From the IMG/VR virus record IMGVR_UViG_3300043811_000021, positions 1 through 64,000 of that record: a stretch of DNA of 64,000 nt; one strand, written 5' to 3'. Below are positions 50,866 through 59,384 of the stretch, piece after piece (positions within the stretch are counted from its first letter, which is position 1; the number at the start of each line of letters is the position of its first letter). This stretch comes from a virus. A program made the translations under genes and the position numbers. The notes beneath the pieces are model-generated. The model was not told the DNA's origin and searched no databases. It saw nothing but the letters and a program-made list of their open reading frames with translations.

Positions 50866-50951
50866 TGGTGGAGCCGGTGGGACTTGAACCCACATTGGGT
50901 TTCCCCGCTCATTAAAAGTGAGGTCTCTGCATCCAATTCGAGTACGACTCC
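50866..50951 (-). tRNA. Class II-type tRNA-Lys (anticodon TTT)
   Basis: 86 nt with CCA. Acceptor GGAGTCG/CGGCTCC, anticodon stem CTCA/TGAG, loop CTTTTAA. A long variable arm (GGGGAAACCC) is present, unlike normal tRNA-Lys. Discriminator A73 is the usual lysine one. Confidence 0.85.
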
Positions 50952-50959
50952 ATTAAACT

Positions 50960-51036
50960 TGGTGAGCGCGGCTGGATTTGAACCAGCGTCAGCCTGCTTA
51001 AGAGGCAGGTATAATCAGCCGCTATACGACGCGCTC
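50960..51036 (-). tRNA. tRNA-Lys (anticodon CTT)
   Basis: 77 nt with CCA. Acceptor GAGCGCG/CGCGCTC, stem CCTGC/GCAGG, loop CTCTTAA. Normal variable loop. Confidence 0.95.
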
Positions 51037-51037
51037 A

Positions 51038-51117
51038 TGGTAGACGTGACGGGTGTCGAACCCGCGTACTCCCGCTTATAAGGCAGGTGCTAAAACCAAT
51101 CCATCAGCTACACGTCT
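51038..51117 (-). tRNA. tRNA-Ile (anticodon TAT)
   Basis: 80 nt with CCA. Acceptor AGACGTG/CACGTCT, loop CTTATAA. Reads AUA directly; bacteria normally use a lysidine-modified CAT tRNA for this codon. Confidence 0.93.
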
Positions 51118-51126
51118 GTAAAACTA

Positions 51127-51202
51127 TGGTGCCAGTGGCTCAACTCGAATGAGCTACCTCCGACTTATGAGATCGGCGCATATCCACTTCTGCTTCACTG
51201 GC
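51127..51202 (-). tRNA. tRNA with anticodon CAT (elongator Met or Ile)
   Basis: 76 nt with CCA. Acceptor GCCAGTG/CACTGGC, loop CTCATAA. A paired G1-C72 argues against an initiator. Met versus lysidine-type Ile cannot be decided. Confidence 0.93.
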
Positions 51203-51207
51203 GAAAC

Positions 51208-51278
51208 TGGCAGGGGATAGGAGAATCGAACTCCTCACGGCGAGTTTTGGAGACTCGCCTAATCCCAGATCATCCCCT
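51208..51278 (-). tRNA. tRNA-Trp (anticodon CCA)
   Basis: 71 nt with CCA. Acceptor AGGGGAT/ATCCCCT, stem CGAGT/ACTCG, loop CTCCAAA, G73 as expected for Trp. Confidence 0.95.
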
Positions 51279-51312
51279 GTATATCCTGCGAATTTTCAAT
51301 GATCAAAAAGAA

Positions 51313-51333
51313 GCCCTTCCACTGAGGAAGGGC
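51313..51333 (-). terminator. Terminator after the 23-aa ORF, before tRNA-Trp
   Basis: GCCCTTCC-TCAGT-GGAAGGGC followed by TTCTTTTT on the - strand. It lies between the small ORF and tRNA-Trp, so tRNA transcription needs readthrough or a separate start. Confidence 0.75.
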
Positions 51334-51359
51334 CGGTGCTACAACACTTGCACAGACCC

Positions 51360-51431
51360 CTAAGACACGATCCCCCATCCCATCCGCTTGATGGTTATGG
51401 TTCTGACGTGTTTGCTAGTGGTCTGCATCAT
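51360..51431 (-). CDS. Small ORF with its own promoter and terminator, 23 aa
   Basis: Starts MMQTTSKHVRTIT after CAAAGGA, with TATAAT at 51467-51472 and a terminator after the stop. The peptide is basic and amphipathic in part (KRMGWGIV). Not recognised. The complete unit (promoter, ORF, terminator) argues for a real gene. Confidence 0.5.
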   Translation of the reverse strand: MMQTTSKHVRTITIKRMGWGIVS

Positions 51432-51466
51432 TTTTCCTTTGTCGAGGGGTTTCCCGCTCTAGCCCT

Positions 51467-51472
51467 ATTATA
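51467..51472 (-). promoter_or_regulatory. -10 box TATAAT upstream of the 23-aa ORF
   Basis: TATAAT about 36 bases before the ORF start, in GGGATATAATAGGGC. No good -35. Confidence 0.5.
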
Positions 51473-51526
51473 TCCCAGGCTGGGGTTTAGCTCTGCATAA
51501 TCCATCTACAGAGTACCGCAAGTCGA

Positions 51527-51856
51527 TTAGGAATGCAAGCCCAAAAATCGATAAGTCAACAATAAAGTTGTCAGATGGATCGCCTGATCGAACCCAATCA
51601 GCACAAAGAACCAGTGACGCTTCTCTTTCTTCCACAAATACGAAGTCCCCCTAGAGGTAATGTAATCGGTCGCGAAATGGAAGACAAACGTAATTATAGC
51701 GAACTTCCAGCCGAAAGCCAAGAATGGAAGAGAGTAAACAGAGACGTGAATTCCAAGCCATGTGTTTCTCGTTGACTTATTGAGAGCCATATTATCAGTT
51801 TGCAGAACAAAATCTGAGATGAAGTGAATCCAGATCAACGCTAAGATGTAGAGCAT
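51527..51856 (-). CDS. DUF3307 membrane protein
   Basis: 109 aa. Three or four hydrophobic helices: '[18 protein letters not shown]' at the N-terminus, then '[18 protein letters not shown]'. The family is common in phages; its role is unknown. GGAGAAATC precedes the ATG. Confidence 0.8.
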
Positions 51857-51864
51857 GATTTCTC

Positions 51865-52185
51865 CTAGTGGTCACGAAATATACTGCAATCAGAATAATC
51901 CGTCCCCTCTATCTTGCCTTTCTCAAATTGATTTCTTCCGTACTTTCTACAAAAGTGAGCCAGCTCTATCCACTCTTTATCTTCAAGTGAAGTAGAAGGA
52001 AGAGAGATTTTGATATTTTTTAATAATTCCTTAAATTTTTCGTCTTCTTTTTCGAGAAGTTCTCTTTTATGCTGGCCAATCTGGTCGTACATGGTAACAT
52101 TTCCAATCCAATTCTGTGCCTCCTCTGCACTGAATCCAAAAGATTCAACACAAGTTCTTTCTGCCTCTCTTTTCCATTCGTACAT
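51865..52185 (-). CDS. Hypothetical protein, 106 aa
   Basis: Starts [14 protein letters not shown] after GAGGATTATT. Charged, helical, Cys at two places. Not recognised. Confidence 0.6.
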
Positions 52186-57849: not shown

Positions 57850-57878
57850 AGTGTAATACAAATGACTGAAAACATCAA
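57850..57878 (-). promoter_or_regulatory. Leaderless promoter of the HNH gene
   Basis: TTGATG (57873-57878), 17 bases, TACACT (57850-57855), six bases, ATG 57843. Confidence 0.7.
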
Positions 57879-57884
57879 AACTTT

Positions 57885-57960
57885 TGGTGGACCGGGAGGG
57901 GCTTGAGTCCTCGCGCAGACGCTTGCAGGGCGTCCCATCTCCATCTGAAAGTACCGGCCC
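57885..57960 (-). tRNA. tRNA-Ala (anticodon TGC)
   Basis: 76 nt with CCA. Acceptor GGGCCGG/CCGGTCC, stem GACGC/GCGTC. Loop CCTGCAA has C at position 33 instead of the nearly universal T. Confidence 0.88.
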
Positions 57961-58005
57961 ATTTATTCAACTTCAAACTGTGCCGGGGAATTTCACCCCG
58001 GCGAT

Positions 58006-58093
58006 TGGGGAGATCGGCGGAACTCGAATCCGCGTTGAGGAATTACCCTCCCGGAGCCACAATCCGGTGCCTATCCATCTCGGCCACGACCTC
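58006..58093 (-). tRNA. tRNA-His (anticodon GTG) with long variable arm
   Basis: 88 nt with CCA. Acceptor GAGGTCG/CGATCTC, stem CCGGA/TCCGG, loop TTGTGGC, C73 as His tRNA has. A 17-nt variable arm (GAGG…CCTC) is unusual for His. Confidence 0.87.
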
Positions 58094-58096
58094 ACT

Positions 58097-58170
58097 TGGA
58101 GCACTCAGTAGGAATCAAACCCACGTTTTGGCCATACAAAGGGCACGTTCTGTCACTGAACTATGAGTGC
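58097..58170 (-). tRNA. tRNA-Thr (anticodon TGT)
   Basis: 74 nt with CCA. Acceptor GCACTCA/TGAGTGC, loop TTTGTAT, one C-C mismatch in the anticodon stem. Confidence 0.9.
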
Positions 58171-58174
58171 AAAC

Positions 58175-58720
58175 TTACACAAACTGCAAACTCTTCTCAC
58201 CTTCGGAATCAGAGTACAAATACTTACTCCACGCTTCGACTTCCAATCCCATCGAACGAAGGATAATCCTTCCTGTGTGAACCGTGGCTGGGAGAGGCTT
58301 GCGAAGTAGTTTCATTCCAGCCTCTTCCGGCGTACGATCTGCCTTGCGGTGGTTATCTTTGCGGCAGCAAGTTACAAGGTTACTCCAGTCGTTCTTTCCT
58401 CCACGCGACTTAGGAATTACGTGGTCAAGTGTCAAAGAATCACCCTTGAATTCCTCTCCACAATAGCAGCACTTATGCCCATCGCGCAAGTAAATATTTT
58501 TCCTACTCACAACCTGCATCCGAACGGGAATATGTCTATACGTTCTCAACTTGATTACCGATGGTAAAGTTATGCCAGGATAAACTTCAATATCCGTTGG
58601 CATCTCTACCATAGCAGCACCCTTACAAAGTAACGTCAAAGCTCTACGGGCAGCAACTATTCTGATCGGCTCATACGATGCGTTTAATACCAACACCGGC
58701 TTTTTCATCAGGTTGCTCAT
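58175..58720 (-). CDS. HNH endonuclease, bacterial-like
   Basis: 181 aa. 'VLVLNASYEPIRIVAARRALTLLCKG' (from about residue 9) and 'KCCYCGEEFKGDSLTLDHVIPKSRGG' (from about 89) plus 'NLVTCCRKDNHRKADRT' match a common bacterial HNH family. GAGGGA precedes the ATG. It is flanked by tRNAs on both sides. Confidence 0.87.
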   Translation of the reverse strand: MSNLMKKPVLVLNASYEPIRIVAARRALTLLCKGAAMVEMPTDIEVYPGITLPSVIKLRTYRHIPVRMQVVSRKNIYLRDGHKCCYCGEEFKGDSLTLDHVIPKSRGGKNDWSNLVTCCRKDNHRKADRTPEEAGMKLLRKPLPATVHTGRIILRSMGLEVEAWSKYLYSDSEGEKSLQFV

Positions 58721-58764
58721 ATTCCCTCAATCAATCTCCGCTAGTCTCTCTGAATAATCTTCTG

Positions 58765-58840
58765 TGGAGCCGGTGGAGGCAATCGAAGCCCCGACCTCAT
58801 CTGTACGAAAGATGCGCTCTTCCACCTGAGCTACACCGGC
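58765..58840 (-). tRNA. tRNA-Thr (anticodon CGT)
   Basis: 76 nt with CCA. Acceptor GCCGGTG/CACCGGC, stem CATCT/AGATG, loop TTCGTAC. Confidence 0.95.
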
Positions 58841-58935
58841 TTGTCTACGTCTTGCCACTACTATACTATGCACTTTCGTGAAGTCGTGGCTCACTAACAT
58901 CATTCTGTGGGTCATCGGCTTTCCTTTCTTTCAAT

Positions 58936-59010
58936 TGGAGCGGAGTACGGGGTATGATCCCGTGCGCAAAGTGTGGCACACTTCGATGCTTCCAATTACA
59001 TCAACTCCGC
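58936..59010 (-). tRNA. tRNA-Gly (anticodon GCC)
   Basis: 75 nt with CCA. Acceptor GCGGAGT/ACTCCGC, loop GTGCCAC. Confidence 0.94.
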
Positions 59011-59018
59011 AAATCTTT

Positions 59019-59093
59019 TGGTTCCAGCGCGAGGTTACGATCCCCGATCCTCGCCTTCAAAGGGCGGTATCCTACCAGTTAGATGACGCTGGA
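59019..59093 (-). tRNA. tRNA-Gln (anticodon TTG)
   Basis: 75 nt with CCA. Acceptor TCCAGCG/CGCTGGA, loop CTTTGAA, one mismatch at the base of the anticodon stem. Confidence 0.92.
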
Positions 59094-59102
59094 TCAAAAC
59101 CT

Positions 59103-59177
59103 TGGTTGCCCATCGAGGCGACGATCCCCGAACTACTGGTCCAGAGCCAGCCGTGATACCAATTTCACCAATGGGCA
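59103..59177 (-). tRNA. tRNA-Gln (anticodon CTG)
   Basis: 75 nt with CCA. Acceptor TGCCCAT/ATGGGCA, stem CTGG/CCAG, loop CTCTGGA. Confidence 0.92.
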
Positions 59178-59293
59178 ACAACTAAACAGTGAGGGCGCGA
59201 CTCTTTCGCTCCGAACGTCTTACTCAAACCCCAAAGGGGTCACTGCGTTACTCGACAGGACTTACTAGACGGCCTGTGTCCCTCTCCAAACTT
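59178..59293 (-). other. Structured gap of 116 bases
   Basis: No gene. GAGGG…CCCTC (about 59192-59280) pairs at the ends, and CCCC-TTT-GGGG makes a tight inner hairpin. It may be a decayed tRNA; no cloverleaf found. Confidence 0.35.
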
Positions 59294-59384
59294 TGGCTCA
59301 CGGAGCAGGACTCGAACCTGCGATGGGAGATGAACTCCTCTGTATTAACAGTACAGCGCCTGCTACCAACTCGGCTATCCGTGA
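59294..59384 (-). tRNA. tRNA-Asn (anticodon GTT) with long variable arm
   Basis: 91 nt with CCA. Acceptor TCACGGA/TCCGTGA, stem CTGTA/TACAG, loop CTGTTAA, G73 as in Asn tRNA. The 18-nt variable region has a GGAG…CTCC stem, unusual for Asn. Confidence 0.9.

Follow-up and report, generated by a model that had tools for sequence, protein, structure and literature searches.

Long variable arms on tRNA-Lys, tRNA-His and tRNA-Asn genes and a swapped-topology tRNA-Arg gene in a phage tRNA array

Introduction

A stemmed variable (V) region of at least 10 nucleotides (nt) is the mark of the class II tRNAs, which in bacteria are those for Ser, Leu and Tyr, and in these the 13-22 pair is often not Watson-Crick. 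Nematode nev-tRNAs have a long V arm on a retained class II body with a non-cognate anticodon, and are mischarged. The allo-tRNAs and selC*-tRNA-Cys have the identity of seryl- or cysteinyl-tRNA synthetase (SerRS or CysRS). They are natural tRNAs with long V arms and an unusual structure in which the acceptor and anticodon stems are lengthened (PMC7609411). The DNA analyzed here, a window of 64,000 nt from the 134,145-bp IMG/VR virus record IMGVR_UViG_3300043811_000021, which represents a soil-type phage, contains a large minus-strand tRNA array at 49.6-63.3 kb. In this array, genes for tRNA-Lys(UUU), tRNA-His(GUG) and tRNA-Asn(GUU) have long V arms, and a gene for tRNA-Arg(CCU) has the D loop and the anticodon arm in exchanged order. 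Read jointly, the two traits point to remodelled tRNA bodies that would be charged with the cognate amino acids and selected by tRNA-cutting defences, a reading given a probability of about one half.

The long-V phage genes resemble class II tRNAs in the stemmed V region and in the 13-22 pair. They differ in having Lys, His or Asn anticodons, cognate discriminator bases and, in Asn, a U1-A72 pair, and the 3-4 nt linker of the Lys and Asn genes is nearest to that of Tyr. Unlike the nev-tRNAs they keep a cognate acceptor identity, and, unlike in the allo-tRNAs, their acceptor and T arms are of the ordinary 7/5 kind and their ends cognate. A further precedent is phage T5, whose tRNA-Lys, -Thr and -Asn (against PARIS) and tRNA-Tyr (against retron-Eco7) are likewise phage-borne isoacceptors altered relative to host tRNAs. 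For tRNA-Tyr a difference in the variable loop is the stated basis of the resistance (PMC13096335, PMC12409363). In the published T5-type tRNAs, bases are substituted in the anticodon arm or in the variable loop already present, whereas the genes described here gain an entire arm or differ in topology.

Structure of the tRNA-Lys, tRNA-His and tRNA-Asn genes

An earlier sequence-only reading of the window had ascribed stem-forming V arms of 13-18 nt to the three genes. The arms are indeed present, 13, 17 and 18 nt long in Lys, His and Asn (Table 1), and their hairpins are better than those of at least 99% of their own mononucleotide shuffles (P = 0.001, 0.001 and 0.009, respectively). Each arm thus has the class II mark, a stem-forming V region of at least 10 nt. 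The linker from the V stem to the T arm, however, is 3 nt in Lys and His and 4 nt in Asn, not the 1-2 nt expected of Ser or Leu class II identity. The acceptor and T arms are 7/5 in all three, not the 8/4 or 9/3 of allo-tRNAs. The D arm is class-II-like and the 13-22 pair is lost. Anticodon and discriminator are cognate in each gene (A73, G73 and C73 for Lys, Asn and His), in agreement with the earlier assignment of the discriminators, and the His gene has no encoded G-1. The anticodon of the Lys gene was correctly read as TTT. ARAGORN labels this gene 'Stop (tta)' because it places the anticodon one base off; read within its stem, the loop CTTTTAA has the anticodon UUU.

Distribution of long variable arms

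Relatives of the window (handles of the form L003) were obtained as 11 contigs through a Ro-like protein gene used as bait, and a Lys sequence pattern added L031 and L128. The order of tRNA genes is common to the window and these relatives. The long arm of tRNA-Lys(UUU) is shared with L003, L031 and L128/L415, where the V region is GGGGTAACCCAAT or GGGGAAACCCAAT, and is replaced by a short V loop at the same position in L006/L010, L289 and L290. The Asn arm is long in the window, L005 and L290 and short in L003, L006, L007 and L415. The His arm is long in the window only, all relatives examined having a short V. Other genes of the family also have long arms: Lys(CUU) in L003, and Gly(UCC) in L006/L010 and L031. 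Since long and short V regions occupy the same positions in relatives, the arms are mosaic and appear to be gained or lost gene by gene.

The window His gene is closest to the tRNA-His of L006, which has a short V; the D arm of that gene, like the one in the short-V tRNA-His of L415, is almost the same as in the window. A Ser-derived body for the window His, considered as a candidate, was rejected on this ground. The nearest neighbours of the window Asn gene are the long-V Asn genes of L214, L147 and L234. Base -1 of tRNA-His is T in the window, L002 and L003, and G in L005, L006, L007 and L415.

Long V arms were then sought across IMG/VR with a pattern consisting of a CTTTTAA (Lys) or CTGTTAA (Asn) loop followed by a long V region, T arm and CCA. 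At least 119 stretches matched for Lys and at least 120 for Asn, nearly all of them full cloverleafs. The pooled set holds at least 98 distinct long-V Lys genes (a few Lys(CUU) included) and at least 112 Asn genes. A His scan restricted to C73 matched 46 stretches, among which 14 long-V His genes proved genuine. Cultured phages with long-V Asn are Proteus phage Stubb, Aeromonas phage 44RR2.8t and T5-like phages including SP15, which belongs to the same genus as T5. The sequence-only reading was therefore right that long arms occur here outside Leu, Ser and Tyr, but they are confined neither to this phage nor to Lys and occur in many unrelated phages.

With a V hairpin defined as at least three consecutive Watson-Crick pairs, hairpins were found, among the matches listed, in 74 of 98 Lys genes (31 expected from shuffling) and in 84 of 112 Asn genes (42 expected). 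Among the long-V His genes the figure is 13 of 14, against 6.5 after shuffling. From V stem to T arm, the 3' linker mostly measures 1 nt in Ser (83/112), 1-2 nt in Leu and 3 nt in Tyr; in long-V genes it is 3-4 nt in most Lys (59/75) and Asn (54/91). A Watson-Crick pair at 13-22 is present in 69% of the short-V Lys genes and in 33% of the long-V ones, with corresponding values of 75% and 42% for Asn and 72% and 0% for Thr, so the tRNA core has been remodelled along with the arm. The closest bodies to many long-V Lys and Asn genes are Ser, Leu or Tyr tRNAs. The origins of the long-V genes are probably mixed, some being class II bodies with a switched anticodon and others class I bodies that acquired an arm.

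Two further groups were seen. The tRNA-His(GUG) genes of L316, L322, L323 and L333 have a Leu-type D arm and a V arm, yet also G-1 and C73; they resemble Leu bodies taken over for His. In unrelated phages (L051, L057, L084, L102, L114, L118, L124, L154 and others), tRNA-Ile(UAU) has a V arm of 20-29 nt with a common loop motif, about CCAGATTAG.

A swapped-topology tRNA-Arg

The same cluster contains a more aberrant gene, tRNA-Arg(CCU), which lies two genes away from tRNA-Lys and which the sequence-only reading had passed over. Its D arm is missing before the anticodon arm, where no D arm with a loop of its own follows position 9, and a D-loop-like segment stands after the anticodon arm instead. 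From the 5' end the layout is a 7-bp acceptor, UA, one base, one strand of a 3-bp stem, one base and a 5-7-5 anticodon arm. This is followed by 3-4 bases, the second strand of the 3-bp stem, the D-loop-like tail, the T arm, the discriminator and CCA. The acceptor (7 bp), T arm (5 bp), anticodon stem (5 bp) and anticodon loop (7 nt) are canonical, and U8, R15-Y48, G18G19 and CCA are also present, with a few members of the class deviating at single positions.

The fold is supported by comparative evidence. RNAalifold, given 17 swapped sequences, returned exactly the swapped fold unprompted. In 38 sequences 97.2% of cells pair, and both-side changes occur in 19 of the 20 pairs. These 38 have a covariation score of 0.96, compared with 0.11-0.16 when the partners are slid, in an alignment that was fitted to the model; in the 17-sequence alignment, which was not fitted, it is 0.967 against 0.12-0.17. 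Model R1 separates the two kinds of tRNA in the window and its relatives, swapped genes scoring at least 72 bits and ordinary tRNAs at most 37, and a second swapped subtype in other phages scores mostly 50-72 bits. The interpretation of Arg(CCU) as another long-V tRNA was rejected: it has no D arm and the 17-sequence consensus fold is the swapped structure. Two weak R1 matches, L411:5533 and L017:1144, were ordinary tRNAs and were excluded.

In a normal tRNA the D stem stacks on the anticodon stem. In the swapped tRNA-Arg, the D stem and anticodon stem would form one continuous hairpin of about equal length, and the D loop, freed to the 3' side, could still meet the T loop, to judge from the secondary structure and the conserved bases. 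D-armless mitochondrial tRNAs likewise lack a D arm on the 5' side of the anticodon arm, but these lose the D loop entirely, whereas swapped tRNA-Arg keeps R15, G18, G19 and A20, moved to the 3' side. Circularly permuted tRNA genes also have an unusual order of parts; they are reordered in the DNA only and mature to normal tRNAs (PMC3978253), while the swapped order is fixed in a continuous gene. A permuted arrangement, with the 3' half upstream of the 5' half, is not what is seen in Arg(CCU), the acceptor strands being in normal order.

A total of 73 distinct swapped genes were found in phages and prophages, 71 of them with Arg anticodons and the remaining two one each for Val and Ile. A20 occurs in all the Arg genes, although for most of the 73 the search pattern prescribed some of the tail, A20 included. 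In the 21 genes that do not fit the patterns, A20 is present in 19 of 19 Arg genes and U20 in the Val and Ile genes; at 15-48, 14 of the 21 have A-U, 6 have G-C and one has a broken pair. A20 is the main determinant for arginyl-tRNA synthetase in bacteria (PMC9976931). With A20 and the 15-48 pair retained, the tail resembles a genuine D loop in its behaviour.

In place of the ordinary Arg(UCU) and Arg(CCG) genes of the window, three adjacent swapped genes, Arg(UCU), Arg(CCU) and Arg(CCG), are found in L003 (12682-12920), L031 (8180-8420) and L128 (2107-2349). The corresponding Arg genes found in L006, L007, L289 and L290 are ordinary. Swapped copies occur in cultured phages, namely E. coli phage AidaStucki_Bas93 (L380), Streptomyces phage Braelyn (L378) and Microbacterium phage Pumpernickel (L379), all three lacking a tRNA annotation where the swapped gene sits. 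Jay2Jay (L377) has a probable Ile-type copy that falls below the model threshold. One bacterial copy, in Limoniibacter, adjoins terminase and tape-measure genes and so lies in a prophage. ARAGORN called none of the swapped copies in the window, L003, L031, L341, L372, L358, L360 or L415. Very probably, then, this is a tRNA of new connectivity that is widespread in phages. It has the D loop and anticodon arm exchanged and perhaps the same L shape, is nearly always Arg with A20 kept, and replaces ordinary Arg genes singly and in place among related phages.

An artefact, whether from errors in sequencing or assembly or from decay of the genes to pseudo-tRNAs, might be suspected from a metagenomic record and from Rfam scores below those of most ordinary tRNAs. 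It is most improbable, and for Lys, Asn and Arg already refuted. The Lys gene recurs with its arm in L003, L031 and L128/L415 and is therefore not a sequencing error; stems, loops and CCA are intact; long-V Asn is found in the cultured, annotated phages SP15 and 44RR2.8t; and 97% of pairs are kept in the 38 swapped-topology genes. Of the two dangers that the sequence-only reading had named for itself, sequence errors are dispelled by three relatives with the Lys arm, and the second, short loops at the same positions in related phages, applies in part.

Charging and decoding

Bacterial tRNA identity rests on the anticodon and A73 or G73 for Lys and Asn and on G-1 and C73 for His, while SerRS reads the V arm and takes no account of the anticodon (PMC9976931). 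The long-V genes keep the cognate elements. U1-A72 with G73 is found in 89 of 109 long-V Asn genes, against 40 of 47 short-V ones. C73 is present in all 14 long-V His genes from the scan, which demanded it, and also in the window His, which was found otherwise. On these grounds the Lys, His and Asn genes would be charged with their cognate amino acids by host synthetases and would read normal codons.

The alternative is mistranslation, in which the V arm makes the tRNAs substrates of SerRS or leucyl-tRNA synthetase and AAA, CAY and AAY codons are read partly as Ser or Leu, as by nev-tRNAs or allo-tRNAs. The recognition of the V arm by SerRS irrespective of anticodon would permit this, and G73 of Asn is also the Ser discriminator and A73 of Lys the Leu discriminator. 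The codon usage of the window bears on the question. The Walker-A Lys of DnaB is encoded by AAA, and the catalytic His and Asn residues of four HNH proteins by CAC, CAT, AAC and AAT. Wholesale recoding is excluded, since catalytic Lys, His and Asn positions use AAA, CAY and AAY. Low-level misreading is still compatible with these codons because host tRNAs read them too. Mistranslation is nevertheless improbable, as the 3' linker is unlike that of Ser and Leu in length, the acceptor ends are cognate and the 7/5 arms are not those of allo-tRNAs. The sequence-only reading had preferred cognate charging and had left nematode-like mistranslation as an alternative. The preference is supported by the acceptor ends and discriminators, C73, U1-A72/G73, the base of the V arm with its 3-4 nt linker unlike Ser or Leu, and the catalytic codons, and the nematode-like alternative is disfavoured. 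Charging of the window His is the least certain because G-1 is not encoded.

Proposed selection by tRNA-cutting defences

Selection on the tRNA body by host tRNA-targeting defences is the likeliest explanation of both traits, with drift and recombination a serious rival. In the proposed mechanism the bodies would have been rebuilt while the anticodon loop, acceptor end and CCA remained those of the cognate isoacceptor. The Lys, His, Asn and Arg tRNAs would be charged by host synthetases with those amino acids and decode normal codons. During infection, host tRNAs would be cut by nucleases such as AriB of PARIS, PrrC and those of the retron or Septu type, and the phage would maintain tRNAs of its own so that translation may go on. 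These nucleases may read the body too (variable loop, D loop) and would then bind or cut an altered phage tRNA poorly, and selection would favour altered bodies still accepted by the ribosome and the cognate synthetase.

What is known of AriB fits a role of the body. AriB leaves T5 tRNA-Lys uncut even with the AriB site put back, cuts less well after a change in the D loop, and reads bases away from the cut site too (PMC12409363). The distribution of long V arms over isoacceptors is uneven. In unselected loci (the counts drop the baited isoacceptor in each set and ignore kinship), long V was found in Ile(UAU) 13/20, Asn 12/49, Thr(UGU) 17/74, Lys(CUU) 5/31, Cys 7/44 and Thr(CGU) 3/24. It was absent from Thr(GGU) (0/25), Asp (0/82), His (0/50), Phe(GAA) (0/56) and Val(UAC). 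The AriB target set, its first four members taken together, has 34 long V of 187 against 62 of 1317 for the rest (P about 1e-9, uncorrected for phylogeny), part of this trend having been seen before the target list was known. The AriB-sensitive U39 is kept in 57 of 85 long-V Lys genes against 20 of 54 short-V ones (P = 8e-4). Such an excess is expected if the arm itself protects, although a lineage effect would look alike. A colicin-E5-like selection (Tyr, His, Asn, Asp) was also considered and is unsupported, given the zero counts of Asp and His.

Several observations weigh against selection by these defences. Ile(UAU) and Cys are enriched in long V yet are not AriB targets, and Lys(UUU) has a long V in only 2 of 40 unselected cases, so one nuclease cannot explain all long V arms. 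His has no long V among 50 unselected genes. The arms are special neither to this phage nor to Lys, which counts against nuclease resistance as the sequence-only reading had put it. The counts carry no correction for phylogeny, and Lys, Asn or His baits had picked out most of the loci. Long-V Asn with G73 could be a weak SerRS substrate, and a tRNA-repair gene was not recognised among the proteins scanned near the array.

The rival explanation is neutral or near-neutral drift. Host tRNAs would back up the phage tRNAs and leave them under weak constraint, and arms or whole genes would be swapped by recombination with no selected function, some long-V His, Asn and Lys genes being Leu-, Ser- or Tyr-like bodies with a changed anticodon. 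The mosaic presence among close relatives, the lost 13-22 pair and class-II-like D arms of many long-V genes, the Ser, Tyr or Leu bodies often closest to long-V Lys and Asn, the Leu-type D arms of several long-V His genes (L316, L322, L323, L333) and the HNH endonuclease genes within the array all agree with it. Drift would not, however, lead one to expect the strong isoacceptor bias, with Asn, Thr(UGU) and Ile(UAU) high and Asp, Thr(GGU), Phe(GAA) and Val(UAC) zero, nor V hairpins retained well above shuffles, nor a Lys arm near-identical across four genomes. The window His is, moreover, closest to short-V His and not to a class II tRNA. Drift is a possible but less probable explanation, at perhaps two-thirds the weight of selection by tRNA-cutting defences. 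For the long V arms taken by themselves, evasion of such defences is plausible and the best functional guess, on weaker grounds than the structural assignments.

The tRNA array

The features of the locus are collected in Table 1. ARAGORN counts 26 tRNAs in the window, and sensitive searches and a purpose-written cloverleaf scanner added several more. The phage encodes a near-complete tRNA set in which the Lys, His, Asn and Arg(CCU) genes are intact.

Table 1. Features of the tRNA array and their positions in the window
Feature	Position	Strand	Remarks
tRNA-Lys(UUU), long V arm	50866..50951	-	A73, encoded CCA; same-arm orthologues in L003, L031, L128/L415
V arm of tRNA-Lys, GGGGAAACCCAAT	50894..50906	-	13 nt, hairpin and 3-nt linker
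tRNA-His(GUG), long V arm	58006..58093	-	C73, encoded CCA; base -1 is T (no encoded G-1)
V arm of tRNA-His, GAGGGTAATTCCTCAAC	58034..58050	-	17 nt
tRNA-Asn(GUU), long V arm	59294..59384	-	U1-A72, G73, encoded CCA
V arm of tRNA-Asn, AGGAGTTCATCTCCCATC	59322..59339	-	18 nt
tRNA-Arg(CCU), swapped topology	50702..50780	-	A73, CCA; 79.6 bits with model R1
5' strand CTC of 3-bp stem enclosing the anticodon arm	50768..50770	-	alignment A2 columns 11-13
Anticodon arm of tRNA-Arg(CCU), 5-7-5	50750..50766	-	loop CTCCTAA
3' strand GAG of the enclosing stem	50743..50745	-	alignment A2 columns 36-38
D-loop-like tail, TAGACGGATTGAC	50730..50742	-	A14 G15 .. G18 G19 A20 .. C48
tRNA-Arg(UCU), ordinary cloverleaf	50785..50861	-	swapped in L003, L031, L128
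tRNA-Arg(CCG), ordinary cloverleaf	50620..50695	-	swapped in L003, L031, L128
RNA-binding protein gene, Ro-like, VWA-type domain, PHROG phrog_850	52903..54411	-	between two tRNA blocks; bait for relatives

HNH endonuclease genes lie within the array at 48943-49584, 54427-54978, 55309-55884 and 58175-58720 and are possible movers of tRNA genes. Near the Ro-like protein gene, at 55180-55297 (minus strand), is a tRNA-like RNA with an 8-bp acceptor, a T arm, a CAU-like anticodon loop and CCA. It has about 45 additional nt with small hairpins between the D region and the anticodon arm, and may be either a Met or Ile tRNA with an insert or a tRNA mimic that resembles Y RNA. An Rfam search near the Ro-like gene, this RNA included, found no Y RNA match. 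Anticodons complementary to stop codons were also seen: UCA at 55922-55992 (minus strand) of the window and at 8714-8787 of L003, and CUA calls in L006/L010 (L006 2861-2934 and 14039-14114). The tRNAs with these anticodons are possible suppressors. In L003 a structured-looking stretch at 12305-12490 lies between tRNA-Met and tRNA-Lys(CUU).

Significance

In the open literature, with subscription journals mostly outside the coverage, no description was found of long-V Lys, Asn or His tRNAs of phages or of the swapped Arg topology, and phages go unmentioned in a review of non-canonical tRNAs from 2020. Others may have come across long-V Asn and not remarked on it, since it can readily be seen in phage genomes that are annotated.

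If the interpretation of the long V arms is true, the length of the V arm is unreliable in phages as a mark of Ser, Leu and Tyr tRNAs, and the rules for annotation and charging would need revision. The isoacceptor bias offers a direct and cheap test of whether tRNA-cutting defences shape the bodies of phage tRNAs. The swapped tRNA-Arg, if true, would show that the cloverleaf path is not the sole route to a working bacterial-type tRNA. Its presence in cultured phages of E. coli, Streptomyces and Microbacterium means that its function may be tested soon.

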